Positions 3,263-32,040 of a stretch of DNA of 32,416 nucleotides are shown in pieces. Source of the DNA: Bacillota bacterium (GTDB lineage Bacteria; Bacillota; Clostridia; Peptostreptococcales; Anaerovoracaceae); the NCBI GenBank assembly GCA_017433375.1, contig JAFRHG010000008.1, positions 1 through 32,416 of the forward strand. The letters are read 5' to 3'. Position 1 is the first letter of the stretch, and every line of letters begins with the position of its first letter. The notes below the pieces were generated by a model. It saw nothing but the letters and a program-made list of their open reading frames with translations, searched no databases and was not told the DNA's origin. The position numbers and the translations under genes are program-made.

Positions 3263-4993
3263 TCAGCCCCTGTATTCCAGGCAGAGCATGGTCAGGTCAT
3301 CGAACTGCTCGTCTTCCCCGACGAACAGGTCGACCGCATCATGAACTCCCTTCAGGACCTGCCTGGGATCGGCATCTGCATCCGCTTCATTGATCGCATC
3401 CATCATCCGGTCAGTTCCAAACTGGCCGGATTCTTTTGACTCCGCCTCCGGCACGCCGTCGGTGTAGACAAAGATCTTGTCCCCGGGATTCAGCTGGATC
3501 TCTTCGTTCCGGTACTTCATTCCCTCCATACCGCCGATGACGAATCCGTGCTTGCTCTGAAGCAGCTCAGCCTGCCCGCCCCTGGAGATCCGGACGGGAT
3601 GTTCGTGGCCGGCGTTGGCTGAGGTAAGCCGGCCGGTGGAGATTTCCAGGACCCCCATCCAGACGGTAACAAACATATCCTCCGGATTGTGGGCGCAGAT
3701 CCGTTCGTTGACCTTTTCCAGCACCTGCGCCGGGGACAGATCCGCCCGGGTCTCCGTTCCCAGCAGGATCTTGGATGCCATCATGAACAGGGACGCCGGG
3801 ACCCCCTTGCCGGCAACATCGGCGATCACCAGCGCCAGATGGTCATCGTCGATCAGGAAGAAGTCATAGAAATCTCCGCCCACTTCTCTCGCCGGCTCCA
3901 TGGAGGCGTACACCTCGAATTCCCCCCGGTCCGGGAAGGCCGGGAAGTCCTTCGGCAGCATGCTCGCCTGGATCCGGGTAGCCAGGGACAGTTCCGTGGT
4001 TATCCGTTCCCTCTCCGCTGTGATGCGGGTCAGGTCATCCACGTAGTCGTTCAGATCCATCTCCATCTTCTGCATGGTGTGGGCAAGATTCTCGATTTCA
4101 TCGCCTGTATGGATATCCAAATTCGCGAAGTGGTTGCCGATGCCCTCCTCCTTATGCGCGTCCTCACTGTATTCCTGCGCCGCCCTCGCCAGGCTGTTGA
4201 TGGGCTTCACCAGATTCTTTCTCATCAGCAGCACGCCGATCAGGGAAGCCAGGATCGTAATGACCAGAAGCAGCAGAACGAATTGGCTCGCGAAGGTCAG
4301 GGCAATGGCCTGCAGCCTGTTCAGATCATCATCGACGCAGACCAGGATCGTGAACTCATCCCCCTTTCGCAGCGTCGACGCGCCGACGCAGGTCGAGTCC
4401 ATGACCACCGCCTGCACGCCCTCCGGTATGCCGTAGCTTTTTTCCATCGGGGTTGGTTCCTTCCCGTTGATCAGCACGTCGGCCATGTCCTTCTCTATCG
4501 GCTGCCACCAACCCGGAGGAATAAACAGCTCCTCATCGCTGTCCGAGTCGACGAGGCAGATCATCCTCCCGGTGCTTTTCTCGATGGCGACGATATAGGC
4601 GTCGAGGGGCCCGTTCCGCTTTTTCATGCGGAGCATGCAGTTACAGATCTTCTGATACTGTTCATCCGTCACGGAATCAAACTTCGCCAGATAGGCGGGC
4701 GAATCCGGATCGCTTTTTTCTTCATCGGACAATCCGGAATAGATCCCCAGGATCTCATCGCACTTGCTCTCCACGTCCACGTCTTCCAGGATCGCCGCCT
4801 CCGAATTGGCAGAGTTCCAAGCACTGACGCAGTACTCGTCCATCGAACTGAGTGCATACAGGGACAGACCGAGCACCAGCACGGTCACCCCGATGCCAAG
4901 GGTCAGAAGCAAAGTGATCACAAAGGTTCTCACATCGATCGATTTCCACCTGCGCTGAGGATTATTCTTCTCCGCCTCGGATTTTCTTGCCAT
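3263..4993 (-). CDS. Membrane sensor SpoIIE/PP2C-type serine phosphatase with HAMP domain
   Basis: 576 residues. TM1 (about 22-48), an extracellular sensor region (49-232), TM2 (about 233-257), a HAMP domain (to about 320), a coiled coil with the usual ATRIQASMLP junction, then the PP2C-like phosphatase domain. Metal-binding motifs are intact: GGDFYDF (372-378), ADVAGKGVPA (391-400), YTDGVPEA (510-517), FDDLTML (564-570). Such proteins dephosphorylate anti-sigma-factor antagonists or similar partners in response to an outside signal. No anti-sigma factor or antagonist gene is present here, so the target is unknown. AGGAGG lies 4 bases before the ATG. It begins 45 bases after the DUF308 gene on the same strand, so it is probably the last gene of that operon. 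Confidence 0.92.
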   Translation of the reverse strand: MARKSEAEKNNPQRRWKSIDVRTFVITLLLTLGIGVTVLVLGLSLYALSSMDEYCVSAWNSANSEAAILEDVDVESKCDEILGIYSGLSDEEKSDPDSPAYLAKFDSVTDEQYQKICNCMLRMKKRNGPLDAYIVAIEKSTGRMICLVDSDSDEELFIPPGWWQPIEKDMADVLINGKEPTPMEKSYGIPEGVQAVVMDSTCVGASTLRKGDEFTILVCVDDDLNRLQAIALTFASQFVLLLLVITILASLIGVLLMRKNLVKPINSLARAAQEYSEDAHKEEGIGNHFANLDIHTGDEIENLAHTMQKMEMDLNDYVDDLTRITAERERITTELSLATRIQASMLPKDFPAFPDRGEFEVYASMEPAREVGGDFYDFFLIDDDHLALVIADVAGKGVPASLFMMASKILLGTETRADLSPAQVLEKVNERICAHNPEDMFVTVWMGVLEISTGRLTSANAGHEHPVRISRGGQAELLQSKHGFVIGGMEGMKYRNEEIQLNPGDKIFVYTDGVPEAESKESGQFGTDRMMDAINEADADADPRQVLKGVHDAVDLFVGEDEQFDDLTMLCLEYRG

Positions 4994-5038
4994 ACGACCT
5001 CCTGTTGTTCAACAGTCCCGTCCTCCACGGAACGGGCT

Positions 5039-5575
5039 TTACTGGATATACGCGATCGCGGTCTTCCGCAGGGCCCGGACGATCCGTATCAGACCGGACC
5101 AGGCAAGGCCCGCGGCATAAATCAGCACTGCAACGGCAAAGGACCTGATATGGAGCAGGCACAGCACCGCCAGGATCACGTTGACCATGCCCTCGAAGAG
5201 CTGCAGCTTCCATGATCCCGACTTCAGCCTTTTGGCCTCCAGCGCCCGCATCATATCGATGACGCCGGAGAACAGGTGCAGCCCGACCAGATACAGCATC
5301 ATATAGACCACCGGCACATCCGTCAGGGATGCGGTGAACAGGCCCATGTCGATCATGATGATGGCCCTGTACAGCTCGGATTTGCCCCCTACCATATGAT
5401 GGCCCATGGTGAGGAAGAATACGATCTTCCTTGCTCCGTCAAAGAGCATCCCCGCACAGAGGAACAGGATGATGGCCCGGTACGTCTCCTGAGGGTCCGA
5501 GCAGACCAGTACAATGGCAAAGGCAATCATGATCAGGCCGATCAGGATGTTCAGCGCACGCCGTTTTTTCGTCAT
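5039..5575 (-). CDS. DUF308/HdeD-like membrane protein (cassette A)
   Basis: 178 residues with about six hydrophobic helices and short loops, matching the size and pattern of HdeD/DUF308 membrane proteins. The most conserved region is IIMIDMGLFTASL followed by VVYMMLYLVGLHLF and RALEAK. A paralogue lies at 21842-22372; both end in the same residues, YIQ. The start overlaps the stop of the preceding metalloprotein gene (ATGA), implying coupled translation. HdeD-type proteins have been linked to acid stress in enterics, but the role here is unknown. The constant pairing with the metalloprotein in both cassettes suggests it acts as a membrane partner. Confidence 0.85.
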   Translation of the reverse strand: MTKKRRALNILIGLIMIAFAIVLVCSDPQETYRAIILFLCAGMLFDGARKIVFFLTMGHHMVGGKSELYRAIIMIDMGLFTASLTDVPVVYMMLYLVGLHLFSGVIDMMRALEAKRLKSGSWKLQLFEGMVNVILAVLCLLHIRSFAVAVLIYAAGLAWSGLIRIVRALRKTAIAYIQ

Positions 5576-6858
5576 GCGTCCTCACCTCCCTGCTCCTCAG
5601 CCGCAGCTCCCTCGCCGGAATCGAACTCTTCCGCTTTCAGCCCGCCGGAATCGAACTCTTCCGCTGACCGCTGGTCCAGCAGCCCGTCGGTGATCTCCTC
5701 GACCGCGCTGTCCGCTCTGGCCTCCAGGATGCTGGCGAAGTCCGCCATGCCCCCGAATCCCTTTTCGTTGAAATCTATGCTGATGCCCGCCAGGCTGTTT
5801 CCGGAGGAATGGATCCTGTTGGTCACCATGCTCTTCTGCGTCAGTGCCGCCAGGAAAAACTTCCCCAGGAAGGTGTTGCCTTTGCTTCCCTTTTCCGCGT
5901 CGACATATTCCTTCTGGTAGGCGCCGATGTCGAAATCTCCGATGGTCCGCCCGGACAGTTTCTCGCCGAAGGCCTTCCAGTCGGCGCTGGCATCCAGCTG
6001 CCGCCGCCGGAGGATGGCCCAGATTTCCTTCGCGTAAGGACTGACCGCCGCCACGTCGTAGGTGTCCGTCTCAAAGGAGGGATTGTCCCCCCGCAGATAC
6101 CTCAGGGCGTAGATCATCTGGGTGAAGGCGTGAAGATAGTCTTCGGGATTGTTCTTGATGATCTCCCGGTACTTTCCCCACGCCGGCATATACCGGTAGC
6201 GGATGAAGCTGTAGTCCGGCAGATGACCCGCCCTGCCGTGGCCCAGGTTCATGATGTTTTTCTCACTGCTCTGGTAAACGCTGTTGGTATATAACCCCGC
6301 TTCCGGATCATCCGGGGCGGAGGCGCTGTGGCGGAACAGGACACGCCGGTCCTTCAGCCCTTCCTCCGTCTCCAGGATCTCGAAGAAGTGGTAATTGGTA
6401 TTGTTGATCACCAGGGACGGCGTGCCGGCAAAATGCTGATGGGCCCAGGTATCCGCCAGCACGTGCATGGCCACCCCTGCCGCCTGCAGGCTTTTGCCTT
6501 TGGCCAGTTCCACCGTATCCCTGACCAGGTCCCCGTTGGGGCCGCAGATCAGGCGGTATTTATCCCGGTAACGCTTCAGGCCTTTGACCTCCGCATGCAG
6601 ATCCCTGGGCAGGAAATGGAAGGAGGACCATATCCGGGTGATGTCCTGAAGACCGGTCAGGTCAGTCCGGGCGTCCATCAGCTCCAGCTGCAGCTGGGTC
6701 GTGGCTGCGGCCTTCGGGCCGCCCAGTTTGCTCAGCAGCGTCCGGGAACACAGGTCCACGAACTGGGCGCTGTAGCAGATCTCCATGCTCTCTTCATGGG
6801 AGTAGCCGGCCAGGTATGCGGCGCAGTATGTCGCATAGTAGTGGAAGTCTTCCTGCAC
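5572..6858 (-). CDS. DUF6765-like His-rich predicted metalloprotein (cassette A)
   Basis: 428 residues, no signal peptide, mostly helical. I believe this is the DUF6765 family, from memory. Residues shared with the paralogue at 22372-23496 include His6 (FHYYATYCAAYLAGYS), His21, His81, the HxxxDxxxH motif His132-Asp136-His140, the block GHGRAGHLPDYS (206-217) and His243 (YLHAFTQM). This His/Asp set resembles the metal sites of zinc-dependent phospholipase C and S1/P1 nucleases, so a metal-dependent hydrolase is plausible but unproven. The C-terminus carries a 54-residue extension absent from the paralogue, with a duplicated AEEFDSG motif. It starts 3 bases after the upstream membrane-protein gene and overlaps the downstream one. 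Confidence 0.8.
   Translation of the reverse strand: MQEDFHYYATYCAAYLAGYSHEESMEICYSAQFVDLCSRTLLSKLGGPKAAATTQLQLELMDARTDLTGLQDITRIWSSFHFLPRDLHAEVKGLKRYRDKYRLICGPNGDLVRDTVELAKGKSLQAAGVAMHVLADTWAHQHFAGTPSLVINNTNYHFFEILETEEGLKDRRVLFRHSASAPDDPEAGLYTNSVYQSSEKNIMNLGHGRAGHLPDYSFIRYRYMPAWGKYREIIKNNPEDYLHAFTQMIYALRYLRGDNPSFETDTYDVAAVSPYAKEIWAILRRRQLDASADWKAFGEKLSGRTIGDFDIGAYQKEYVDAEKGSKGNTFLGKFFLAALTQKSMVTNRIHSSGNSLAGISIDFNEKGFGGMADFASILEARADSAVEEITDGLLDQRSAEEFDSGGLKAEEFDSGEGAAAEEQGGEDA
5613..5665 (-). repeat. Exact 23-base direct repeat in the metalloprotein tail
   Basis: The same 23 bases occur at 5613-5635 and 5643-5665 (period 30, ten codons), encoding two AEEFDSG units near the C-terminus of the cassette A metalloprotein. 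The second paralogue lacks this tail, so it is a recent in-frame duplication. Confidence 0.9.
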
Positions 6859-6861
6859 GGA

Positions 6862-7536
6862 TCACACCTCCCCTTCGCCGCCGGAGGATTTCGTCCCGCC
6901 GGTCGCATCGCTGCTGCCGGGCAGTTCGCCCTTCCCGTTCTTCCCGCGCTTTCTGCGCTGTTTGTCTTGCGCTCTGCTGTCCCAGAGCCCGATCCCCAGC
7001 TTTTTCCGCAGGCGCCGCACCTGAATGGAGGCGAACACCATCTCCAGCAGGGCCGCCAGGGAAGTCGCGTCCAGCAGCCGGGAAGCCAGCACCGTATCCA
7101 GGTCACTGACGCTGGCCGCCTGGTTCTCCTGGGGAATGAACCCCGTAATGAATTCCGAAGCCAGTGGTACGATCAGGATGCAGGCCAAGATCACATAGAG
7201 GACATTCCCCCTTTTCACCCGTCTGCCGTCCAGTACCGCTGAACGTCCCACGTAGACGCGGATCAGCACATCGACGGAAAGAAACGCGAAAAGCACACCA
7301 AGGAATATGGTGTCGGCCACGACGTGGGCGCCTCCGGTGCCAATGATCTCTTCCAGCCCCTGTACGTCGCTTTCCGTCTCAAAGGCCGATAAGACATCCA
7401 CGTTCCCGGTGATGAAATACAGTCCCGACTTGATGATGCTCCACAATCCAAAGGCGATCACCGCCACGCCGCTGACCGTCAGGGTATTCTCATATTTCCG
7501 CAGTCTGATCCGATCCGGATCGTTTCTCTCCTGCAC
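6862..7536 (-). CDS. Four-helix membrane protein (cassette A, first gene)
   Basis: 224 residues from a GTG start at 7536. That codon has GGAGGGG a few bases upstream, and an ATG further out lacks a site. It begins ERNDPDRIRLRKYEN, then about four membrane segments: LTVSGVAVIAFGLWSIIKSG, VADTIFLGVLFAFLSVDVL, VLYVILACILIVPLA and LLDATSLAALLEMVFASIQV. RRLRKKLGI and a basic, low-complexity cytoplasmic tail follow. The paralogue at 23533-24288 shares LRKYE, VIAFGLWSII and RRLRKKLGI. No known family was recognised. It is the first gene of the cassette and has its own promoter, so it probably acts with the metalloprotein and the DUF308 protein. Confidence 0.8.
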   Translation of the reverse strand: MQERNDPDRIRLRKYENTLTVSGVAVIAFGLWSIIKSGLYFITGNVDVLSAFETESDVQGLEEIIGTGGAHVVADTIFLGVLFAFLSVDVLIRVYVGRSAVLDGRRVKRGNVLYVILACILIVPLASEFITGFIPQENQAASVSDLDTVLASRLLDATSLAALLEMVFASIQVRRLRKKLGIGLWDSRAQDKQRRKRGKNGKGELPGSSDATGGTKSSGGEGEV

Positions 7537-7563
7537 CGTCTCCCCTCCAGTATGTACCTTATT

Positions 7564-7569
7564 ATTATA
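7564..7569 (-). promoter_or_regulatory. -10 element for cassette A
   Basis: TATAAT on the minus strand at 7569-7564, 28 bases before the GTG start. No good -35 hexamer is visible at 16-18 bases, so a regulator may be needed or the site may be weak. Confidence 0.45.
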
Positions 7570-7622
7570 CACGCTGAACGGAATAAGAAAACCCTCATTC
7601 CCCGGTTTCGCCCCGGCGGGCG

Positions 7623-7651
7623 TTGCTTTTGCACGGGAGGAGTACTACAAT
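7623..7651 (+). promoter_or_regulatory. Promoter of the C11 peptidase gene
   Basis: TTGCTT (7623-7628), a 17-base spacer and TACAAT (7646-7651). The start at 7691 follows GGGAGG by 8 bases. It is divergent from the cassette A promoter. Confidence 0.55.
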
Positions 7652-7690
7652 CAGAGTATAGACTTAGGGAACTGACGGGAGGAAAATGCA

Positions 7691-10381
7691 ATGCTGCTCA
7701 TCTGTCTGCTGGGGGACTACCCCGTATGGATCGTTTCATGGATTCTGATGGCCATCGGCTACTACCTCGTCCTGAAGAGGATGGGGCTGTCGAAGTGGGC
7801 CTGTGTGATTCCCTTCCTGGCGGAACGGGAACTGTCCAAGGTGCTGTTCCGAAGGCTCCGGTCATTCTACCGCCCCTTCGTGGTGGCACTGGTGCTGCTG
7901 ATCTTCGGCCTCTATCTGGGGACCGGCGAGGACCTGGGCTTCGCCTATATGTTCCTTGCTGTTCTCGTCTACGGTATTTTTCAGCTCCGTCTCTACTGGC
8001 GTCTCCGCAAAAGCTTCGGACGGGGATTCATATTCTACCTCGCTCTGATCCTGCTGCCGCCCCTCTTCCTGATCATTCTGGGCACGGGGAAAAAGTCTTA
8101 TGCTCCCCTGCCCCTGAAGCCGATCCGGGACCACGGCAAGCTGGGGAACGCTATCCGAAAGGGCGCCCTGGTGCTCGTCTCCGCCGCGGAGATCCTGGTG
8201 CTGGTGGTCGGCGTGGGCTTCTTCGCGATCCAGAGTCTCCCGCCGGAACTTTTGGTCAATTACCAGCTCAGCGACTTCCATGATAAAACGAAGGATATCC
8301 AGGGAGACGGCGAAGTGGTTTCCCGCGAGGATGCCATGGGCAAAGCCGCCGGTGCGGTGGCAGCGATGAAGCCCAGCCGGGAACCCTTCTTCCCCGATCA
8401 CTCCCGTGACCAGAGCGTCGCGGTCCTGACCTACGTGATAGGCTCGAACCTGGAGCACAAGGGCGGCCTGGCTTCCGCCAACATCAAGCAGATGGTCGAT
8501 GCAACGAAGCAGGGCGATAACCTCACCTTCGTCATGGAAGCCGGCGGCACGAAGCGCTGGTTCACCAGGGGCATCGAAAACAGCTCCTGCGCCCGGTACG
8601 AGATCCGCGGCGGCGAGCTGACGAAGAAGGAGGACCTGCCCGATGATCTTTGCATGTCGGAGAGCGAAAGCCTTCTGGACTTCCTGAACTGGGCGAAAAA
8701 GAACTACAAGGCTGACCGGTACATGCTGGTGCTGTGGGATCACGGCGGCGGCGTGCCCTACGGATACGGCCGGGATGACCTGAATAAACGGGACTCCGAC
8801 GAAGACATCAGCACCCTCATGACATCGGAGGTGGTGGACGCCATCGGGAAGTCCGGCATGAAGTTCGATGTGATCGGCTTCGACGCCTGCCTGATGCAGG
8901 ACATCGAGATCGCCGCGGCCATGGAGCCCTACACCGATTATTACCTGGCCTCGGAGGAGATCGAGGGCGGTTACGGCTGGTTCTACACCTCCTCCTTCGG
9001 GAAGCTGGCCCAGGATCCGGGCCTGTCCACGGAGGAATTCGCCGTGGATATGCTCTCCTGCTATGACCAGATGAACACCGTCGTCAAGGATGATGACGGG
9101 AAACCGGATACAAAGGCAACCCTGTCCCTGGTGGACACCCGCCTGGCCAAGCCTGCCTATGATGAGCTCGCCGGGCTGATGGGCAAAATGGACGAGGCCA
9201 TCCGCGAGGATTCCGGAGCCTTCGCCAGCACGGCAGTGGCCGGCGCCAACGCCTACTCCTTCCAGGACGATATGCAGATCGACCTCATCGACTATCTGAA
9301 GATCCTGAAGAAGACGGACTATGAGAACGATATCTGTTCCGACAAGGAACTGACCGACCTGATCCGCCGGATCCAGGCCTGCGTCCTCTACCGGAATAAG
9401 GATTCAGCGAAGGGCATCTCCGGCATGGCCTTCGCCTTCCCCTACAAGGCGATCGAGATGTACGGCGATACCAGCAAGCAGCTGAAAGCCATGTCCCTCA
9501 ACACGGAACGCAAAACCTTCGATGACATCTTCAGCATCATCGCCGTGCAGAAGAAGCGGGCCATGGAAGACGAAAACTATGTGGATAATCTGCCGGCAAC
9601 CGGCGACGAGGAAGCGGATCCCCTGACGACCCTGCTGGAATCCATCGCTCCCACGGATTACACCGACAGCGACTGGTACGTGAAGGGCTTCGAGGATTAT
9701 GACACCTCCACCGCCCTGGTGGACATCCCCCTGAAGGAGACCCCGGAGGGTTACGCGATCCAGCTGCCGGAGAAGACCTGGAAGATCATCGCCGATTGCC
9801 AGACCATGGTCTATCAGGACGTGCCCGGCGGCAATGAGGGCGACTGGGTCTATCTGGGCAAGGATTACCTTGGCGGCGAGGATGACAAAGGACATCCCCT
9901 CCTGGCCATGGACGGCAGCTGGATCCATATCAACGGGAATCCGGTCTGCTACGAGGCGGATCCTGTACGGGAGACAGCGGACGGCGACGTCTACTCCGGC
10001 AAGGTGCCGGCCCGCCTGAACAACGAGGAGGACGTCATCCTGAATATCGAATGGGATCCCATAAAAGAGGGGGTTGACGCGGTCGAAGGACACGTGACCG
10101 GCTACGAAACCACCGACGAGGGAATCCTGTCCGGCGTTCTGGACACCAAGGGGACCCTGAACCTGAAGGCCGGCGATACCATCCAGTTCCTTTTTGAAAC
10201 CTATGACGCCGAAGGCAATCTGGTCAGCATGGAACCCTCCGGCGACAAGATCCGGGTAACAAAACAAAACCGCCTGAAGGTGGAAGACCTTCCCCTTGGG
10301 GAGGAACCCATCCACTTCTGCGGCGTGCTGACGGACGTCTACCAGAGAGTCATGTATACGGAGATGCTTGATCTGGAGTAG
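7691..10381 (+). CDS. Membrane-anchored clostripain-family (C11) cysteine peptidase
   Basis: 896 residues. The N-terminal 180 residues hold about five hydrophobic helices, not a signal peptide. The C11 peptidase domain follows (about 240-620). Its dyad is visible: His351 in LVLWDHGGGVPYGYG and Cys400 in VIGFDACLMQDIE. The opening block YVIGSNLEHKGG is also typical of C11. The C-terminal region (about 660-896) is beta-rich and not recognised. C11 enzymes such as clostripain cut after Arg or Lys and are usually secreted and self-processed. Here a multi-helix membrane module precedes the enzyme, so the peptidase is probably tethered and faces outward. It has its own promoter and diverges from cassette A. 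The substrate is unknown. Confidence 0.9.
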   Translation: MLLICLLGDYPVWIVSWILMAIGYYLVLKRMGLSKWACVIPFLAERELSKVLFRRLRSFYRPFVVALVLLIFGLYLGTGEDLGFAYMFLAVLVYGIFQLRLYWRLRKSFGRGFIFYLALILLPPLFLIILGTGKKSYAPLPLKPIRDHGKLGNAIRKGALVLVSAAEILVLVVGVGFFAIQSLPPELLVNYQLSDFHDKTKDIQGDGEVVSREDAMGKAAGAVAAMKPSREPFFPDHSRDQSVAVLTYVIGSNLEHKGGLASANIKQMVDATKQGDNLTFVMEAGGTKRWFTRGIENSSCARYEIRGGELTKKEDLPDDLCMSESESLLDFLNWAKKNYKADRYMLVLWDHGGGVPYGYGRDDLNKRDSDEDISTLMTSEVVDAIGKSGMKFDVIGFDACLMQDIEIAAAMEPYTDYYLASEEIEGGYGWFYTSSFGKLAQDPGLSTEEFAVDMLSCYDQMNTVVKDDDGKPDTKATLSLVDTRLAKPAYDELAGLMGKMDEAIREDSGAFASTAVAGANAYSFQDDMQIDLIDYLKILKKTDYENDICSDKELTDLIRRIQACVLYRNKDSAKGISGMAFAFPYKAIEMYGDTSKQLKAMSLNTERKTFDDIFSIIAVQKKRAMEDENYVDNLPATGDEEADPLTTLLESIAPTDYTDSDWYVKGFEDYDTSTALVDIPLKETPEGYAIQLPEKTWKIIADCQTMVYQDVPGGNEGDWVYLGKDYLGGEDDKGHPLLAMDGSWIHINGNPVCYEADPVRETADGDVYSGKVPARLNNEEDVILNIEWDPIKEGVDAVEGHVTGYETTDEGILSGVLDTKGTLNLKAGDTIQFLFETYDAEGNLVSMEPSGDKIRVTKQNRLKVEDLPLGEEPIHFCGVLTDVYQRVMYTEMLDLE

Positions 10382-10445: not shown

Positions 10446-11768
10446 TCAGCGCTCCCGGAGCATGAAGTCCTTATCCTGCTCGATGAGCTGGAGCATGATA
10501 TGGGCGAAGAGCGGGTCGAACTGCGTGCCGGAGCAGCGTTCCAGTTCCTCCCGGACCGCTTCCTGAGGCAGGGCCCTGCGGTAGCTCCGGTTGGAGGTCA
10601 TGGCGTCGTAGGCGTCGGCCACGGAAATGATCCGGGCCAGTTCGGGAATCGAATCCCCCTCCAGGCCGTCCGGATAACCGTTGCCTTCGAACCGTTCGTG
10701 GTGGTACCGTGCGGCGATGCTGAGATAGGAGTAATCGCTGATCTGGGAAAGGATCTGGGCTCCGATGGCGGGATGTGATTTGATCACATCAAACTCCTCC
10801 TGGGACAGTTTCCCTTCTTTATTGATGATCTCATCGGGAATGCCGATCTTGCCCACATCGTGGAGCAGAGCGGCGTAATAGACTTCATTGCATTCCTTTT
10901 CACTCTTTCCGCATATGGCGGCGATCCTCCGGGAATACTCCGCGACTCTGGCGGAGTGTCCCTGGGTATAGGCGTCCTTGGCGTCGATGGCGTTAACCAG
11001 GGCGACGGCCGTCTGGGAAAAGAGCTTCTGTATGCTTTCCTGTTCCTCCCTCAGCAGCTGCAGTTCCCGCTGCTGCGCACGCTCCAGGCTCCGGTTCGTG
11101 TCCGCCAGGGTGAACACGTAGAGCACCACCACCATGCCCACGAGGGACATATCCGTCAGGTAGATGCCGTAGATGAAGAACTGGAAGCCGGACGCGATGA
11201 GAGGCACCAAGGTGAACAGCATCATGGTCACCCACATGGTGGGCCGCATCTGCCTGCGATATCCCAGGATGACCGAGAAGAGCAGGAGAATAACCAGAAG
11301 CGCAGGAATATAGCTGATCACGAAACCGGGGTTCCGGTGATAGACGTTCATCTCATCGAAAGAATAGTACAGTCCGGTGAACTGGGATACGATGACCAGG
11401 ATCTCGCCGGCGATGACGATGAACAGGGCGGCCCACAGCCGTTTGGGCACGGGCAGTTTCAGATCCACCCGGAAGATATCCATCAGATACACGGTGAAGG
11501 CGAGAATGACCATAAGGGTCGTAAAGAACACGCAGAAGTTGCTGGCCCGGACCATCCAGTATCCTGTGGCCGAAGTGTCCCCGTAAAAGAACTCGCCAAG
11601 ATTCTCGGCGATAAGCAGGAACATGGCGCTGAGGGCCATCACCACCTGGGCGGCCTTGCGCACCGGGGAGATATATCTGGTGACGCACGCGAAGAGAGCG
11701 ATCATGCCGCAGATGCCGCTCAGCACATACATCATCTCACTCTGGTAGGTTCTCAGAAACTCCACCAT
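10446..11768 (-). CDS. Multi-pass membrane HD-GYP domain protein
   Basis: 440 residues. About seven hydrophobic helices fill residues 10-220, a short coiled coil rich in Arg/Gln/Glu follows (225-250), then a complete HD-GYP domain. Motifs: GHSARVAEYS (His271), LLHDVGKIGIPD (His303/Asp304), SHPAIGAQIL, HHERFEGNGYPDGL with the GYP triplet at 364-366, and VADAYDAMTSNRSYR. HD-GYP enzymes hydrolyse cyclic di-GMP (or related dinucleotides); all metal ligands appear present. The membrane part likely senses a ligand or membrane state. The ATG at 11768 sits about 9 bases after AGAGGG. It has its own promoter. Confidence 0.92.
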   Translation of the reverse strand: MVEFLRTYQSEMMYVLSGICGMIALFACVTRYISPVRKAAQVVMALSAMFLLIAENLGEFFYGDTSATGYWMVRASNFCVFFTTLMVILAFTVYLMDIFRVDLKLPVPKRLWAALFIVIAGEILVIVSQFTGLYYSFDEMNVYHRNPGFVISYIPALLVILLLFSVILGYRRQMRPTMWVTMMLFTLVPLIASGFQFFIYGIYLTDMSLVGMVVVLYVFTLADTNRSLERAQQRELQLLREEQESIQKLFSQTAVALVNAIDAKDAYTQGHSARVAEYSRRIAAICGKSEKECNEVYYAALLHDVGKIGIPDEIINKEGKLSQEEFDVIKSHPAIGAQILSQISDYSYLSIAARYHHERFEGNGYPDGLEGDSIPELARIISVADAYDAMTSNRSYRRALPQEAVREELERCSGTQFDPLFAHIMLQLIEQDKDFMLRER

Positions 11769-11836
11769 CGGGTCCGACCCTCTCTTTCCCGGTTATCCTG
11801 TCCGGACCGATCCTGCCGCGGGGCACACATCAGTCC

Positions 11837-11865
11837 GTTATACAAAGCAAATCTTATTTTATCAA
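11837..11865 (-). promoter_or_regulatory. Promoter of the HD-GYP gene
   Basis: On the minus strand TTGATA (11865-11860), a 17-base spacer and TATAAC (11842-11837), about 70 bases before the start codon. It lies just past the stop codon of the upstream copper ATPase gene. Confidence 0.7.
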
Positions 11866-11874
11866 ATTGTTGGA

Positions 11875-14184
11875 TTACTGTCCATGCGGCGCCCTGTCCC
11901 GGTCCCCGTTGTACAGCTTGAAGGCATTCAGCCTCAGGGCGTTGGTGACGACGCAGAAGCTGGACAGGGCCATGGCCGCCGCCGCGATCATCGGATTCAG
12001 GGTCCATCCGAAGGCGTGAATGAAGGCGCCCGCCGCCAGAGGCATTCCCAAGACGTTATAGAAAAAGGCCCAGAACAGATTCTCATGGATGTTCCGCAGC
12101 GTCGCCCGGCTGAGCCGGACCGCCGCAGCCGCATCCGTCAGCCGGCTCTTCATCAGAACCACGTCCGCCGCGTCGATGGCCACATCCGTTCCCGCGCCGA
12201 TGGCGATGCCGATGTCCGCCCCCGTAAGAGCCGGCGCGTCGTTGATCCCGTCACCCACCATGGCGACGCTTCCCTGCTGCCGCAGCCTGCCGATGATCTC
12301 TCCCTTTTCCTCCGGCCGAACGCCTGCCTCCGCTTCATCCACACCGGCCTTCCCGGCAATGGCCTGCGCGGTTCTGGGATTGTCGCCCGTGAGCATCACC
12401 ACGCGGATGCCCATCTTCTTCAGCTGGCCGATGGCTTCCGGCGAATCCTCCTTGATCACATCGGCAACGGAAAGGATGCCCAGGAACCGGTTTTCCTCCG
12501 CGAAGAACACGGGAGTCTGCCCCTGGTCCGCAAGGCTGTCCGCCATGCCGATATACCGGCCCGGGATGTCCGTTTCCTGTTCGATCAGTTCCCGGTTTCC
12601 TCCGGTGATCCGCTTCCCGTCCGCCATGGCCGTAAGGCCGTTTCCCGGGAAGGTCCGGAATCCGGTCACCTCCTCCGGTTTCATGCCGGCCTCCGACCCG
12701 AAGGCGGTGATTGCCTTTGCAATGGGATGTTCGGACCGGGCTTCCAGGGCCAGGGCAGCGCGGATCAGTTCCTCCTCGCTGACGCCTTCCGCTCCGTGAA
12801 CTTCGATGACCTCCGGCTCCCCCTTCGTGATGGTGCCGGTCTTGTCCAAAGCCATGATCCGGGTCTTGCCGGCAGCTTCCAGGGATTCCGCCGTCTTGAA
12901 CAGGATGCCGTTTCTGGCGCCCACCCCGTTGCCGACCATGATCGCCACGGGCGTAGCGAGGCCCAACGCGCAGGGACAGCTGATCACCAGCACCGAGATG
13001 GCCCTGGCCAGGGCAAAGCCGACCGTCTGTCCCACAGCGATCCAGATGACGAAGGTGATCAGGGCGATGGCGATGACCGCGGGCACGAAGATGCCCGATA
13101 CCCGGTCCGCGATCTTCGCGATGGGGGCTTTCGTCGCCGCCGCGTCGGAGACCATGTCAATGATCTGCGCCAGGGCAGTGTCCTTGCCGACGCGGGTCGC
13201 TTCGCAGACCAGATAGCCGTTCTCGTTGACGGTGGCCGCCGACACCGGATCGCCGGCTTCCTTGTCCACGGGGATGCTCTCCCCCGTCAGGGCCGACTCG
13301 TTTACCGCGCCGTTTCCTTCCACCACGATGCCGTCCACGGGGATGTTCTGTCCCGGCCGGACCACGAACCGGTCGCCCGTCTTCACCTGTTCGACGGGGA
13401 CTTCCTCTTCCGCGCCGTCACGCAGAAGGACCGCCGTCTTCGGCGACAGCCTCATCAGCTCCTTCAGCGCATCGGTGGTGCGGCCCTTGGAGACCGACTC
13501 CAGCAGCTTGCCCACGGTGATGAGGGTGAGGATCATGGCCGCGGATTCGAAGTACAGCCCGCCGGTCGACGCCGCTCCATGGGCTCCGGCCGCAGCCCCT
13601 TGTCCGCCTCCAGCTTGTCCCGCCGCCATGGCGATGAGCACGCAAAGGCTGTAGATATAGGACGCCGCCGCGCCCATGGCGACCAGGGTGTCCATGTTGG
13701 GCGCCCGGTGAAGGAGTCCCTTCAGGCCGCTGATGAAAAACTTCCGGTTGATCACCATCACCAGTCCCGCCAGAATCATCTCGCAGATCCCTGCTGCGAC
13801 GGGGCTGTCCGCCAGAAAACCCGGAAGGGGCCATCCCCGCATCCCGCTGCCCATGCCGATATACATCAGCGGCAGCAACAAAACAACCGAGGCAATCAGG
13901 CGGTTCCTGATCCTCGGTGTTTCCGTGTCTTCCAGCGCCTCCCCGCCCTGCGGTGGGTCGGCTTCTCTCTCCTCCTGCTCTTCCTCTTCCGCGAGGGCCG
14001 CTCCATAACCGGCGTCCTCAACGGCGGCGATCACCGCGGCAGGTTCCGCGTCGCCTTCCACGCCCATGGAATTGGTCAGCAGGCTGACCGCGCAGCTGCT
14101 GACTCCGGGTACGGCCGAAACCGCTTTCTCCACCCTCGCCTGGCAGGCCGCGCAGCCCATTCCTGTAACATTGTATCTTCTCAT
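11875..14184 (-). CDS. copA: Copper-type P1B ATPase
   Basis: 769 residues. One N-terminal heavy-metal-associated domain with GMGCAAC (Cys11, Cys14), an acidic linker, then a complete P1B-type ATPase. Motifs: TGES (300-303), the intramembrane CPC (403-405) followed by ALG, the phosphorylated Asp447 in DKTGT, SEHP (484-487), GDGIND (645-650), and the late membrane residues YN (709-710) and MALSS (738-742). CPC with YN and MxxSS is the Cu(I)-exporting subgroup. An Ala/Gly-rich insertion (about 190-208) sits between membrane helices. The ribosome site AAGGAG lies inside the last codons of the upstream CPBP gene, so the two are translationally coupled. No CopY/CsoR regulator or copper chaperone gene is nearby. 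Confidence 0.95.
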   Translation of the reverse strand: MRRYNVTGMGCAACQARVEKAVSAVPGVSSCAVSLLTNSMGVEGDAEPAAVIAAVEDAGYGAALAEEEEQEEREADPPQGGEALEDTETPRIRNRLIASVVLLLPLMYIGMGSGMRGWPLPGFLADSPVAAGICEMILAGLVMVINRKFFISGLKGLLHRAPNMDTLVAMGAAASYIYSLCVLIAMAAGQAGGGQGAAAGAHGAASTGGLYFESAAMILTLITVGKLLESVSKGRTTDALKELMRLSPKTAVLLRDGAEEEVPVEQVKTGDRFVVRPGQNIPVDGIVVEGNGAVNESALTGESIPVDKEAGDPVSAATVNENGYLVCEATRVGKDTALAQIIDMVSDAAATKAPIAKIADRVSGIFVPAVIAIALITFVIWIAVGQTVGFALARAISVLVISCPCALGLATPVAIMVGNGVGARNGILFKTAESLEAAGKTRIMALDKTGTITKGEPEVIEVHGAEGVSEEELIRAALALEARSEHPIAKAITAFGSEAGMKPEEVTGFRTFPGNGLTAMADGKRITGGNRELIEQETDIPGRYIGMADSLADQGQTPVFFAEENRFLGILSVADVIKEDSPEAIGQLKKMGIRVVMLTGDNPRTAQAIAGKAGVDEAEAGVRPEEKGEIIGRLRQQGSVAMVGDGINDAPALTGADIGIAIGAGTDVAIDAADVVLMKSRLTDAAAAVRLSRATLRNIHENLFWAFFYNVLGMPLAAGAFIHAFGWTLNPMIAAAAMALSSFCVVTNALRLNAFKLYNGDRDRAPHGQ

Positions 14185-14185
14185 T

Positions 14186-15517
14186 CTAACTCTCCTTTAT
14201 GTCCGGGATGTCCGTTTCCGCCATCTCAACCGGCTCGGCGATCTCCGGCGCCATGTCCGCCAGCTCGATATTCTCCGCGGCCATGTCGGCCAGCTCGCCA
14301 TTCTCCGGCCCATGCCCGATCAGTGCGTTGACTCCCAGGTCGGCGTCAACAGGCCGGCTGCTTTCCGGCGCGGCGTCAACCAGACCAGCGTCTACCGGCC
14401 GGCTGTTCTCCAGCGCGGCGTCAACGGGCACATTGTTCTCCGGCGCAGCGTCGACCGGCGCGGCGGCGGCGTTTTCATAGTGCCATTCCGATGCGGCTTC
14501 CTTGTCGGCTTTGGCCTTCCGCTTGCCCGGCGGCAGGGGCTGAGGCCCCTCCGGATCCCTGCGCGGCGTGACTTGCCTTTGCAGAAGCTCTCCCGCCCGG
14601 CCCTGACGGATGGCCAGGATCAGGCAGATCAGTCCAAGAAGCCCGTCGGAGACCAGCGCGGGAATGGCTCCCTCCACGCCGAAGGGTACACTGTAGACCA
14701 TGGAGCTGCGCGCGGTGGCCGCGTCCAGCCCGAAGACGGAAGCCTCCGAAACCAGCCCGCTGTTGGGCAGGCCGAAGAGGAAGTTCTGGGTAAAGTTCCA
14801 GGCTGTGTGAATGCCCGCGGGGAACCAGATGCTGCCGGTGTACCATTTTGCCAGTGAGAAGGAAACGCCGCACACGGCGATCTCCACGACGGCAAACACG
14901 GTCGCCCCGTCATTGAAGCAGTGGAGCATGCCGAAGAAGACACCGTTCACCAGTATGGCCACCCACAGGGGATAGCGCACATTGATCCGTTCATACATGA
15001 ATCCCCGCGTCCACAGCTCCTCGGAGGAACTCTGGATGAACACGAAGACCAGAGCGATAAAGTAGAACGGGATCTGGTTCAGGGCGAAGTTCAGGAACAG
15101 ATGGATGTCCCCGTTGATCATCGCGCACACGATGCAGGCGAAGTTCATGATGAATCCCACCAGCAGCCCCGCCAGGAGCATCTTCATCGTCCTGCCCGGC
15201 TTGATCGGCAGAAAACTCCGGAAAATGAAGCGGTTGCGCTTCGTCAGTCCGGTATACAGGAACACGATGACAAATGCCGGCAGCGTCATGAGATAGTACT
15301 GCACGGCGAAGTTCATGGCATCCGGCATATAGCCGATCTGGTGAACCAGTCCGCTGAAATAGTCGATGTCGGGCCGGGAAAAAAACAGGCCCGGCAAAGA
15401 ACAGATCAGCAGATACCAGAACGCCGTGACCAGCAAGATCCAGATAATCAGATTATGGTGGTCAAACGGTTCCTTGACTTTTACCTCTTCGATTCTCGGT
15501 TCGTTTTCACTCATCAT
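14186..15517 (-). CDS. CPBP-family intramembrane protease with repetitive acidic tail
   Basis: 443 residues from the ATG at 15517 (an adjacent ATG at 15514 is equally possible); a longer frame has no ribosome site. About eight membrane helices. The CPBP (type II CAAX prenyl protease/ABI) motifs are complete: EELWTR (Glu166, Glu167, Arg171), FFGMLH (His199) and HTAWN (His237, Asn241). These membrane proteases process or degrade membrane peptides and proteins; bacterial roles include bacteriocin immunity and regulated proteolysis. The last 130 residues are an unusual tail made of short Asp/Ala/Pro/Glu repeats (PVDAA, ELADMA), not part of the usual family. The stop codon is one base from the start of copA. 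Confidence 0.88.
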   Translation of the reverse strand: MMSENEPRIEEVKVKEPFDHHNLIIWILLVTAFWYLLICSLPGLFFSRPDIDYFSGLVHQIGYMPDAMNFAVQYYLMTLPAFVIVFLYTGLTKRNRFIFRSFLPIKPGRTMKMLLAGLLVGFIMNFACIVCAMINGDIHLFLNFALNQIPFYFIALVFVFIQSSSEELWTRGFMYERINVRYPLWVAILVNGVFFGMLHCFNDGATVFAVVEIAVCGVSFSLAKWYTGSIWFPAGIHTAWNFTQNFLFGLPNSGLVSEASVFGLDAATARSSMVYSVPFGVEGAIPALVSDGLLGLICLILAIRQGRAGELLQRQVTPRRDPEGPQPLPPGKRKAKADKEAASEWHYENAAAAPVDAAPENNVPVDAALENSRPVDAGLVDAAPESSRPVDADLGVNALIGHGPENGELADMAAENIELADMAPEIAEPVEMAETDIPDIKES

Positions 15518-15576
15518 ATTCACCCTTTCCGGTGCGGCTCTGTCCGCGCTCATTCGCGTTTTGTCCGCACCATATT

Positions 15577-21841: not shown

Positions 21842-22372
21842 TTACTGGATGTAGACCATCGTGGTCTTTCGGAATGCCGTGATGATCTTAATGACGCCGG
21901 CATAGATCAGGCCGACCGCATAGATCATAACCGCGATTGATGTCACCTTGATGAACACCAGGCATAAAATGGCCAGGAGTATATTGACGATGCCGCTGCC
22001 CATGGTCACCTTCCAGTGGGACCCCATCTTTTTGGCCTCCAGCGCCCGCAGGACATCGATGCCTCCGGTGAACATGTGGATCGCGATCAGATACAGCATG
22101 ACATACATCAGCGGTACCTGTGTCAGGGCGCCGGTAAACAGCCCCAGGTCGATCATGATGACCGCCTGGTACAGCATGGACCTGCCGTCCACCATAAATC
22201 TGGCCATGCGGAAGTAGAAAAACAGCAGTTTGATGCCCCGGAAGGTCATTCCCAGGCAGAGCATAGCGGTAAGGAGCGGGTAACACTCGTTAGGCGCGAT
22301 GCAGAAGATCGCACCGGCGAGAATCATGACCACGCCGAATAGCACATCCTTCACTCGCTGCACTTGCGTCAT
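21842..22372 (-). CDS. DUF308/HdeD-like membrane protein (cassette B)
   Basis: 176 residues and about six membrane helices, paralogous to the protein at 5039-5575. Shared blocks include VIMIDLGLFTGALTQVP, YVMLYLIAIHMF, DVLRALEAKK and the C-terminal YIQ. The start shares one base with the preceding stop (TAATG), so translation is coupled to the metalloprotein gene. Function unknown. Directly after its stop codon, and in the same frame, lies an open stretch that leads into the MscS-like domain. Confidence 0.85.
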   Translation of the reverse strand: MTQVQRVKDVLFGVVMILAGAIFCIAPNECYPLLTAMLCLGMTFRGIKLLFFYFRMARFMVDGRSMLYQAVIMIDLGLFTGALTQVPLMYVMLYLIAIHMFTGGIDVLRALEAKKMGSHWKVTMGSGIVNILLAILCLVFIKVTSIAVMIYAVGLIYAGVIKIITAFRKTTMVYIQ

Positions 22373-23496
22373 TACTGCTCACCTCCATCCACCGATTTCG
22401 ACCGGGTGATGCTGATGCCTGCCAGTTTGTTGCCGGAACTGTAGATGCGATTGGTCACCATGCTCTTGTGGGCAGTAGCCGCCAGAATGAATTTCCCCAG
22501 GAAGGTCTCATCCCGCTCCTCATGGGACGCGTTCACGAACTCCTCCTGATACTTGTCCAGGTCGAAGGCCTCGACCTCACATCCGGACATCTTCTCTCCC
22601 AGCGCCTTCCAGTCGGGACAGGCATCCAGCTGCCGCTTCACCAGGATCTTCTTGATCTCTTTGACCCATGGCCTCACCGTTTCGGTGTCGTAGGTCTCCT
22701 TCTCAAAGGCCGGTATATCTCCCCGGATATACCGGAGGGCGTATACCATCTGGGTGAAGGCATGCAGATAATCCGAGGGATTATCCTTGATGATCTCCTC
22801 GTAGTTCCCCCAGGCCGGCATGTACCTCCAGCGCATGAAGCTGTAGTCGGGCAGATGGCCCGCCCGGCCGTGGCCCAGGTTCATAATGGTGTTCTCAACG
22901 GTCTGGAATACGGTGTTCGTATACTTGCCCTTTTCCAGATTGTCCGGTGCCGAGGCACTGTGCCGGAAAGTGAGATGGCGCTCCACCATCTTTCCGTTTT
23001 CCGGAAGGATCTCGTAAAACTCATAGCCCGTATTATTGATGACCAGGGAGGTCGTCCCCGCGAAGTTGGTATGGGCCCAGGTGTCCGCCAGCACGTGCAT
23101 GGCAACGCCTGCCGCCTGCAGGCTGCTGCCCCTGGCCAGCTCTACCGTATCCACCACCAGGTCTCCGTTCGGTCCGCAGATCAGGCGGTACTTGTCCTTA
23201 TACTTCTTCGATGTCCGCCGGGGAGGTTCTGCCTTCAGATCCCGGGGGAGGAAGTGGAATGAGGACCAGATTCTGGTGATATCCTGCAGGCCCGTCTTGT
23301 CCGTCCGCGCGTCCATCAGCTCCAGCTGCAGCTGGGTGGTGGCCGCGGTGTTCGGGCCGCCGATCTTCGTCAGCAGCGTGCGGGAACACAGGTCAACGAA
23401 CTGGGCGCTGTAACAGATATCCATACTCTCCTCGTGAGAGTAGCCCGCAAGGTATGCGGCGCAATAGGTTGCGTAGTAGTGGAAACTTTCTTCCAT
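22372..23496 (-). CDS. DUF6765-like His-rich predicted metalloprotein (cassette B)
   Basis: 374 residues, closely similar to the cassette A protein over its whole length, but without that protein's 54-residue tail. Its first 40 residues are nearly identical to those of the cassette A protein. It keeps every candidate metal ligand: His6, His21, His81, the HVLADTWAH motif (His134, Asp138, His142), the GHGRAGHLPDYS block and YLHAFTQM. No signal peptide, so cytoplasmic or membrane-associated through its partners. The likeness to zinc-dependent phospholipase C/S1-P1 metal sites is by motif only. AGGAGA lies 8 bases before the ATG, 36 bases after the stop of the first cassette gene. Confidence 0.8.
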   Translation of the reverse strand: MEESFHYYATYCAAYLAGYSHEESMDICYSAQFVDLCSRTLLTKIGGPNTAATTQLQLELMDARTDKTGLQDITRIWSSFHFLPRDLKAEPPRRTSKKYKDKYRLICGPNGDLVVDTVELARGSSLQAAGVAMHVLADTWAHTNFAGTTSLVINNTGYEFYEILPENGKMVERHLTFRHSASAPDNLEKGKYTNTVFQTVENTIMNLGHGRAGHLPDYSFMRWRYMPAWGNYEEIIKDNPSDYLHAFTQMVYALRYIRGDIPAFEKETYDTETVRPWVKEIKKILVKRQLDACPDWKALGEKMSGCEVEAFDLDKYQEEFVNASHEERDETFLGKFILAATAHKSMVTNRIYSSGNKLAGISITRSKSVDGGEQ

Positions 23497-23532
23497 GCTA
23501 TTGTTCTCCTGTGATGTCGTCTGGCTGTTCGC

Positions 23533-24288
23533 TTATTCCGAGAGTTCCCTTACTCCCGTGATCGTGCTCAGTCCATCGCTGAACTCCTTGCCCAGCGCCT
23601 CCCGTTCATCTCTTTCCAGAGGAATGTTCAGTTCTTCCAGCAACTCTCTGCTCAGTTCCGTCTTTTCATTCTTGTTCTTTCTTCTTACCGTCTTGATGCC
23701 GAGCTTTTTTCTCAGCCTGCGGACCATGATGCCGCAAAAGGCGACTTCAACAAGCACCAGCATAGACGTAATGTCCACGATGATGGAAACACTCGCCGCC
23801 TGGTCTCCGCTGGCGGAAGTCTCTTCATAGGCCTCGCCCGGGTTAGAATTGATCGCTTCAATGATGGGCCGGAAAAAGTCATCGACAGTGGAGTAGACGC
23901 TGCCGAGCATGGAGATCGCCATGAACCACGCGATGATGATGTAGAGCACGGTTTTCTTCCTTCTCCGGCCGTCTCTGCGGGCGGACAGCCCGACATAGAC
24001 CCGCAGCAGCAGATCGATGCCCAACACGAGAAAAATGAACCCCGTTATGATCGCGTCCAGATTGTCCGTGATGTACTCCACGCCCCCTTCCTGTCCGAGG
24101 GCCATGATTTCCACCAGATCCGCTTCCTCAATGTAGTCCAAAACGTCCAGCGGATTAAGAAAATAGTAAATGGCAGCACGAATAATACTCCACAGGCCGA
24201 AGGCAATCACTCCGAACCCGCTGATCACCAGAATGCTCTCATACTTTCTCAGCTTAACCAGCCGGGGATCAGTACCCGTCTGCATCAT
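23533..24288 (-). CDS. Four-helix membrane protein (cassette B, first gene)
   Basis: 251 residues from ATG 24288. A longer frame to 24372 is rejected because the promoter lies inside it; AGGAGG stands 10 bases before this ATG. It begins MQTGTDPRLVKLRKYES and has about four membrane segments: ILVISGFGVIAFGLWSIIRA, AIITGFIFLVLGIDLLL, VLYIIIAWFMAISML and SIIVDITSMLVLVEVAF. RRLRKKLGIK and a charged cytoplasmic tail follow. It is the paralogue of 6862-7536, but the loop between helices 3 and 4 is longer. Family unknown. Confidence 0.8.
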   Translation of the reverse strand: MMQTGTDPRLVKLRKYESILVISGFGVIAFGLWSIIRAAIYYFLNPLDVLDYIEEADLVEIMALGQEGGVEYITDNLDAIITGFIFLVLGIDLLLRVYVGLSARRDGRRRKKTVLYIIIAWFMAISMLGSVYSTVDDFFRPIIEAINSNPGEAYEETSASGDQAASVSIIVDITSMLVLVEVAFCGIMVRRLRKKLGIKTVRRKNKNEKTELSRELLEELNIPLERDEREALGKEFSDGLSTITGVRELSE

Positions 24289-24446: not shown

Positions 24447-25124
24447 TTATTTATTGACTCTCTGTATAAGTTCCGCGATATCGCTGACCATCTGGACCAT
24501 GGGCATGGTCTGGATCACGATCTTTCCCGGTCCGGTGACGACCGTGTTGAACAGGCCTTCACCGCCGAAGAGGATATTGGTCGCCCCCTTGATCATTACG
24601 ATGTCAATGCTGCAGGTTTCATCCATCATGACGAGGTAGCCGGTATCGAGAACCTTCTTCTGTCCCGGCGCCAGTGTATATTCGACGACTCCGCCGTCGA
24701 TCTCGAGGAGGGCGGTTCCCTGTCCGGAAAGTTTCTGCATGATGAAGCCTTCGCCGCCGAACAGTCCGCTGCCGATCTTCTTCTGGAAGAAGATGTCCAG
24801 ATCAACACCCTCATCAGCCGCCAGGAAGGCGCCCTTCTGGGCGACGATGCTCTTGCCGGGCTGGATCTCGACCGGGATGATCTGACCCGGTGTGCATGCC
24901 GAGAAGGTGATCTCTCCGTCCGCGTCTGCGACAAAACGGTTCAGGAACAGAGTCTCCTTGGACAGCGCACGTCCAACCAGTTTCCCGAGACCGCCGGACT
25001 TGGTCTCCATGCGGATGCTGGGATCCATCCATGACATCGCGCCGGCCTCGCACTTGATGGCCTCGCCGGCCTTCATCTTACAGACTGCTGCCGGGAAATT
25101 TCCGCCAATGATTTCATAATTCAT
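24447..25124 (-). CDS. AIM24/TIGR00266-family protein
   Basis: 225 residues, all-beta with many Gly turns. The pattern matches the AIM24 family (TIGR00266): MNYEIIGGNFPAA start, EAGAMSWMD, FFQKKIGSGLFGGEGFIMQKLSGQGTAL in the centre, LDTGYLVMMDET and a second FGGEGLF near the end. The two similar halves form the family's trimeric beta fold. The biochemical role of bacterial members is not established. AAGGAGG lies 7 bases before the ATG, and a near-consensus promoter drives it, so it is probably well expressed alone. Confidence 0.9.
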   Translation of the reverse strand: MNYEIIGGNFPAAVCKMKAGEAIKCEAGAMSWMDPSIRMETKSGGLGKLVGRALSKETLFLNRFVADADGEITFSACTPGQIIPVEIQPGKSIVAQKGAFLAADEGVDLDIFFQKKIGSGLFGGEGFIMQKLSGQGTALLEIDGGVVEYTLAPGQKKVLDTGYLVMMDETCSIDIVMIKGATNILFGGEGLFNTVVTGPGKIVIQTMPMVQMVSDIAELIQRVNK

Positions 25125-31952: not shown

Positions 31953-32040
31953 TTTCTCAACCTCTATTCTTCCCACGTCAAAACCGACAGTTGCTGCAGT
32001 TCAGTTTCAGATGCTATACACCAGGGGGTCAATCGACATG

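Follow-up and report, generated by a model that had tools for sequence, protein, structure and literature searches.

The window analysed here, the whole 32,416-nucleotide (nt) stretch of contig JAFRHG010000008.1 (Bacillota bacterium, assembly GCA_017433375.1), carries twice on its minus strand a cassette of three genes, at 5039–7536 (copy A) and 21842–24288 (copy B). Each copy encodes a four-helix membrane protein (M4), a DUF6765 protein (D) and a six-helix membrane protein of the DUF308 type (M6). The locus raises the question of whether these genes form one functional unit and, if so, what D might do with two membrane partners. We found that the three genes recur together in nearly all nearer relatives and that D keeps a small set of His and Asp residues throughout its family. 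On this basis we put forward, as a proposal whose chances we consider evenly balanced, that D hydrolyses phosphodiesters in the cytosol as a metal-dependent enzyme of the phospholipase C (PLC)/S1-P1 type, and that M4 and M6 keep it at the inner face of the membrane. PLC/S1-P1-type enzymes are known mainly as secreted proteins. If the proposal is true, these bacteria would have a cytosolic form bound to two membrane proteins and could act from within on their own membrane or on membrane-bound signals. In addition, DUF6765 and a branch of DUF308 gain a shared context. The cassette is present in several named Butyrivibrio and Oribacterium strains, and the question is therefore directly testable.

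Two copies of a three-gene cassette

The initial annotation had described the cassette as present twice in the same gene order, and all six genes were confirmed as open reading frames (ORFs) on the minus strand at the places it had named (Table 1). M4 starts with GTG at 7536 in copy A and with ATG at 24288 in copy B, each preceded by a GGAGG-type site; these starts look better than those of the longest ORFs. The overlapping reading frames for which translational coupling had been proposed are present at the D–M6 junction (ATGA in A, TAATG in B); M4 and D do not overlap and are separated by 3 nt in copy A and 36 nt in copy B. The membrane proteins have indeed diverged more than D between the copies: identity is 268/372 (72%) for D, 84/176 (48%) for M6 and 93/225 (41%, computed on the longer ORFs) for M4. 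The source assembly (1.95 Mb, 38 contigs, 89% complete) contains exactly two D genes, with none further at an E-value (E) ≤10.

Both D proteins cover nearly the full DUF6765 model (PF20551) and score far above its cut-off of 26.6 bits (243.7 bits, E 4.9e-72, in copy A; 248.5 bits, E 1.7e-73, in copy B). Both M6 proteins pass the DUF308 cut-off of 25 bits (29.5 and 30.7 bits). M6 does not reach the HdeD equivalog (NF007577; 25.8 bits vs 189 in copy A, no match in copy B), and it differs from HdeD in a conserved loop and an FRKTAIVYIQ tail of its own and in its cassette context. M4 matched no Pfam family over the family's cut-off, copy A none at E ≤1, and among 18 M4 proteins scanned at E ≤1 no family was matched by more than three. 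DUF6765 is a catalogued family of unknown function; neither it nor PF20551 was named in any paper in a full-text search of open papers, a collection outside which most subscription journals lie. DUF6765 and DUF308 are already in the catalogues, and enzymes of this type are known; M4, the cassette and a partnership confined to one clade seem not to have been described before.

M4, D and M6 recur as a conserved set

A D alignment was used to scan 84,980 species genomes and gave at least 590 pattern matches, at least 571 of them relatives, and the loci of the best 80 of these relatives were fetched; the figures that follow hold for nearer relatives. In 79 of the 80 loci the genes lie on one strand in the order M4–D–M6, and in the 80th the contig begins at D. 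The cassette therefore recurs beyond chance, and the earlier suggestion that D goes with two membrane partners stands within its clade. Going by their names, the hosts are rumen and gut Lachnospiraceae, Oscillospiraceae/Ruminococcaceae, Mogibacterium, many Clostridia bins and two Actinomycetota bins; a search of E. coli genomes with copy A DNA gave no match. Two genomes (G086 and G368) have the order M4–M6–D, with the three genes still together.

The three genes are nearly all-or-none among the 49 genomes of the genus. D is found in 18 of them and M4 in the same 18 plus G849, and a strong M6 (≥145 bits) occurs in 17 of the 18 D genomes plus G849; 30 genomes lack D, M4 and strong M6 alike (Fisher p for co-occurrence, 1.6e-12 for M4–D and 4.8e-11 for M6–D). 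The exception among the D genomes, G011, has a contig that stops within D and hence no M6; in G849, an assembly of about 340 contigs, M4 and M6 are on separate contigs and D is absent. Weak matches to the M6 model (≤33 bits) in further genomes, which bring the matched total to 29 of 49, were taken for other DUF308 proteins.

Moreover, the D and M6 reading frames overlap in 60 of 77 measured loci, a count that uses the M6 start codon nearest the stop of D. The distance matrices of the proteins from 83 loci are correlated (r = 0.77 for D–M6, 0.70 for D–M4 and 0.66 for M4–M6, against maxima of 0.14–0.17 in 500 shuffles), although these correlations include species history.

Three loci deserve separate mention. 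Butyrivibrio proteoclasticus P18 has a second short M6-like ORF about 4 kb from its cassette (L074:15298-15621). The cassettes of the two Actinomycetota bins (L076 and L095, Olsenella and Coriobacteriaceae) group together with 100/100 support and are placed among Bacillota copies with unresolved deep branching, which would reflect either transfer or mis-binning.

A putative metal site in D

The alignment of D comprised 86 proteins (69 from cassettes and 17 stand-alone), with identity to copy A down to 17%. Exactly eight His, Asp, Glu, Lys, Arg or Cys positions are at least 97% conserved, namely H6, D35, H81, H132, D136, H140, H207 and D215, that is, five His and three Asp. Each is kept in 85 or 86 of the 86 proteins, including stand-alone D proteins with 17–29% identity to copy A. 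The initial annotation had stated that every His and Asp of the site is kept between the two copies; this is so for the eight family-wide residues and for the motifs HVLADTWAH and GHGRAGHLPDYS, which are identical in both, but not for all such residues of the protein (9/13 His and 17/24 Asp of copy A are kept). The order of the eight residues along the chain, His-Asp-His-His-Asp-His-His-Asp, is one that we take to agree with P1 nuclease. H212 is found in 69/69 cassette D proteins and in only 9/17 of the others, and is therefore less likely to be a core ligand.

Published accounts list one Trp, three Asp and five His as ligands of the S1/P1 nuclease zinc cluster (PMC4144908). The five His and three Asp of D equal this count, which is a likeness in numbers and not a residue-by-residue mapping. 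The HxxxDxxxH-type core of the PLC/S1-P1 superfamily (PF00882, PF02265; clan CL0368) is also present in D, although D scores under the Pfam cut-off, is apparently cytosolic and has two membrane partners. Zn_dep_PLPC (PF00882) was weakly matched by 34 of the 86 D proteins (best E 0.0027), and the next other family by five. The Het-C domain has been described with an HxxxDxxxH motif of the same spacing as in D and was linked to the PLC/S1-P1 superfamily on similarly borderline evidence (PMC3482391); it is absent from the 24 families matched by the 86 D proteins at E ≤1. We consider it quite likely that D carries a PLC/P1-type metal site.

Predicted topology of M4 and M6

Hydropathy averaged over 66 M6 and 91 M4 sequences predicted six helices in M6 and four in M4. 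The predicted inner segments carry 2.2, 1.2, 4.1 and 2.0 Lys/Arg per protein in M6 and 3.5, 4.7 and 4.4 in M4, against 0.1, 0.2 and 0.8 in the outer loops of M6 and 1.2 and 0.6 in those of M4. By the positive-inside rule, this suggests that both ends of both proteins are cytosolic. In both proteins the outer loops are less conserved than the inner ones. The two most conserved segments of M6, YYFTMARHMVGG and FRKTAIVYIQ, are both inner; in M4, helix 1 ranks highest and the GLSARAEG inner loop follows, with an RKLRK tail that is positive and less conserved. If D is cytosolic, as it appears to be, it would lie on the inner side of M4 and M6.

The partnership belongs to one clade of D

DUF6765 was found in 13 of 391 genomes of a class-wide draw. 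Besides the window's own genome, nine of these have M4 and/or M6 adjoining (in G414 on two contigs) and three do not (G122, G278 and G299). In addition, G046, from the same order as the window genome, has D without M4 or M6. A phylum-wide draw contained DUF6765 in 22 of 398 genomes; once the window genome and G086 are set aside, none of the 24 loci in the other 20 genomes shows either membrane gene within about 1.5 kb (E ≤1). Homologues without the membrane genes, an outcome held in advance to speak against the cassette as a unit, are thus the rule among distant DUF6765 genes and not in the cassette clade, and the partnership therefore belongs to one D clade. Thirty-eight residues are fixed in this clade and rare elsewhere (≥68/69 vs ≤4/17) and are candidates for a partner interface or for substrate choice.

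Some distant members have settings of their own. Three marine-plasmid DUF6765 genes (L198, L199 and L201; Vibrio, Aeromonas and Photobacterium) are preceded by a gene for about 220 amino acids (aa) and one for 89–95 aa, and the longer product begins lipoprotein-like in the Vibrio and Aeromonas plasmids; a fourth plasmid copy, from Pseudoalteromonas, is without this layout. An 8.2-kb contig of a viral collection encodes a 550-aa DUF6765 protein (L197:4180-5832) with no M4 or M6 in view, whose C-terminal extension appears lectin-like from a reading of its sequence.

Proposed function and its alternatives

We propose that the cassette is one functional unit. D would be a cytosolic phosphodiester hydrolase with a multinuclear metal site, probably of zinc, working like PLC/S1-P1 enzymes, and M4 and M6 would be inner-membrane proteins with both ends in the cytosol. 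The GLSARAEG..KKK loop and RKLRK tail of M4, together with the YYFTMARHMVGG loop and FRKTAIVYIQ tail of M6, would be the parts that bind D, keeping it at the inner leaflet. A physical complex of D with M4 and M6 is probable in our judgement. M4 and M6 would probably control the access of D to a membrane phosphodiester, for example a phospholipid head group; a lipid is the substrate that we favour, tentatively. In some lineages the cassette has further neighbours, namely SpoIIE/STAS/HATPase partner-switching genes, a membrane clostripain or AIM24. More speculatively, the cassette could be an intracellular membrane-remodelling or signalling machine of gut anaerobes, in which a cytosolic tri-metal PLC-type enzyme is permanently docked on a two-protein inner-membrane platform; this three-gene unit, found in several families, would in some lineages be connected with partner-switching phosphatases and with a membrane protease of the caspase clan.

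Several observations weigh against this proposal, in addition to the caveats on frame overlap and distance correlation given above. The Trp ligand of S1 (Trp21) is described as the first residue once the signal peptide is cleaved (PMC5201275). D has no counterpart to it: the consensus start is M-x-x-D-F-H, and hydropathy of the 86-protein alignment shows neither a signal-peptide-like stretch nor a membrane helix. The Trp ligand is therefore absent or replaced, with D4 (80/86) as a candidate replacement. PF00882 stays under its cut-off in all D members whose scores were inspected (13.4 bits vs 26.8 for copy A; no match for copy B). Comparison of the D profile with three PF00882 groups in hhalign gave probabilities of 36%, 6% and 2%, around HxxxDxxxH, where 14 controls (12 reversed or shuffled decoys, M4 and M6) gave 0.1–0.4%. 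The D profile matched no PDB sequence at E ≤10, and PDB sequence searches with M6 and two PF00882 proteins returned nothing relevant. Conservation in M4 and M6 is not confined to the inner loops, helix 1 of M4 being the best conserved, and most loci share no accessory gene. Genomic evidence for a lipid substrate is thin: GDPD is found in 4 of 146 immediate neighbours, and if the GDPD set corresponds to cluster 12, as length and count suggest, three of these four loci are closely related. The soluble metal-dependent hydrolase of the initial annotation is thus partly supported, by the hydropathy of D and by its PLC/S1-P1-like set of five His and three Asp; the family likeness is weak, and the activity and substrate stay conjectural.

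The same fold and metal site could instead cut a small soluble phosphoester, such as a nucleotide, a second messenger or a cell-wall lipid precursor, with the membrane pair as sensor or transporter. The predicted lack of a signal peptide or transmembrane (TM) helix in D and the SpoIIE/STAS/HATPase genes near the cassette in several lineages, which point to signalling, agree with such a role. We consider it unlikely; it has no substrate-specific support, and the conserved inner faces of M4 and M6 fit a membrane-docked enzyme equally. Rather improbable, in our view, is a role of D in a defence system, as a nuclease or as an effector that kills the cell, with M4 and M6 as its membrane sensor or anchor. 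Nucleases do occur in the superfamily, and HxxxDxxxH is shared with what has been described as a Het-C death domain (PMC3482391); three of the four marine-plasmid DUF6765 genes lie near restriction, Fic or ThiF/MPN genes (the fourth does not), and the cassette is patchy in the genus (18/49 genomes). However, the six window proteins had no PADLOC match at E ≤1. Among the 146 immediate neighbours (threshold 1e-10), three PADLOC models match two members each and ten match one each, nine of these being ZorA (MotA-like), in a scan that had no distant-gene control. Moreover, the median identity of D between loci is about 62%, which is slow for a defence gene, and copy A D had no match in phage records, while the viral contigs contained one distant relative, without M4 or M6. 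That D lacks catalytic activity and serves as a metal-binding scaffold or sensor seems very improbable: the missing Trp ligand and the weak similarity to known enzymes would suit it, but the retention of all eight putative ligands in 85–86 of 86 proteins, stand-alone ones included, is what is expected of an active site.

Neighbouring genes

A wider fixed operon was ruled out, as the commonest cluster besides M4, D and M6 occurs at only 12 of 88 loci. The immediate neighbours lie on the cassette strand upstream in 51 of 86 cases (30 within 60 nt) and downstream in 45 of 80 (24 within 60 nt), and read-through into varying neighbours is therefore possible. For the family scan, 146 of 166 immediate neighbours passed the length filter.

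A SpoIIE-type phosphatase, the downstream neighbour of copy A, is found in four of these 146 at other loci (L081, L108, L115 and L127). The expectation is 0.36 in 166 genes (2.06 matches per Mb in 16 genomes, with an assumed 950 genes per Mb; P 0.0005); copy A had suggested the question, but the choice of test was made with the neighbour list in view, and related loci were counted separately. A control scan of distant genes covered 150 of 309 eligible genes, and its results are for 25 of 185 families, so that families with no more than two members may have been missed; the gene set includes at least one SpoIIE gene. Partner-switching genes of the STAS or HATPase type are no more than four genes away from the cassette at L063/L068, L087/L116 and L115. 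The genome with locus L100 (G838) has 17 SpoIIE-domain matches, some of them short pieces, vs 1–7 in the other 15 genomes searched.

A membrane clostripain of about 890 residues adjoins the cassette, or lies one or two called genes from it, in G003 (L087; also L116), G031 (L077), L066 and L100. In a search of 18 cassette genomes, in which the four with the known neighbour had been included on purpose, a relative with more than 40% identity over nearly the full length occurred once in each of these four and in the window genome, every time at the cassette, while the other 13 genomes lacked it. Two paralogues of lower identity (34–36%) lie elsewhere, and some C11-domain match was present in 16 of 18. 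At L078, three short opposite-strand ORFs about 1.5–2.1 kb upstream of D gave matches to this clostripain (E 8e-30 to 6e-13). Copy B and the G031 cassette both have AIM24 upstream, and in L053, L125 and L031 it is 5–8 kb off. Rce1-like proteins make up 5 of the 146 immediate neighbours.

Table 1. Coordinates of the cassette genes, motifs and nearby genes in the window
Feature	Position	Strand	Description
Copy A M4	6862..7536	-	four-helix membrane protein, 224 aa, GTG start
Copy A D	5572..6858	-	DUF6765 protein, 428 aa; by hydropathy without signal peptide or TM helix
Copy A D, HVLADTWAH (HxxxDxxxH)	6439..6465	-	residues 132-140; H132, D136 and H140 in 86/86
Copy A D, GHGRAGHLPDYS	6208..6243	-	residues 206-217; H207 and D215 in 86/86, H212 in 78/86
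Copy A M6	5039..5575	-	DUF308-type six-helix membrane protein, 178 aa; ATGA overlap with D
Copy B M4	23533..24288	-	251 aa, ATG start
Copy B D	22372..23496	-	DUF6765 protein, 374 aa
Copy B M6	21842..22372	-	DUF308-type, 176 aa; TAATG overlap with D
SpoIIE-type phosphatase	3263..4993	-	HAMP match just under cut-off; 45 nt downstream of copy A M6
Clostripain (C11) protein	7691..10381	+	896 aa, hydrophobic N-terminal part and C11 domain; beside copy A, in divergent orientation
Acyl-CoA transferase gene	19996-21345		near copy B
AIM24/TIGR00266 family protein	24447..25124	-	upstream of copy B, same strand

In a consensus scan of 4900–7800, the one promoter-like site (0.9 expected) fell within M6; there were eight terminator-like sites (2.4 expected, standard deviation 2.0), none of them in the 45-nt gap between M6 and the SpoIIE gene; neither result was used.

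Origin of the two copies

A tree of the joined proteins (32 rows) grouped copies A and B with seven genus members in a nine-member clade (support 99/97); a first tree had been discarded for its very long outgroup branches. Four genus members (G006, G012, G020 and G024) lie outside this clade, and G012 groups with a Mogibacterium-named bin and two others (99/97). Exchange between lineages or old paralogy is therefore likely on this tree. The tree neither favoured nor rejected A and B as sisters (p-AU 0.42). Recent tandem duplication was considered and found unsupported: the two D proteins share 72% identity, vs at most 70% between copy A and other genus copies, and the joined proteins share 59%, vs 61% with L031. 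The clostripain neighbour of copy A is common to G003 and G031, and an acyl-CoA transferase gene, as found near copy B, is situated some 2.9 kb from D in G007, G013 and L068. The neighbours of A and B are each matched in different relatives, and the two copies may therefore occupy two sites that relatives use singly.

Other genes in the window

Between the two copies, the minus strand encodes an HD-domain protein, a heavy-metal P-type ATPase and an Rce1-like protease (10446-15553). Beyond copy B, a minus-strand ORF of 2246 aa (25236-31976) begins, from a reading of its translation, like a secreted metallophosphatase and continues with Ig-like repeats.

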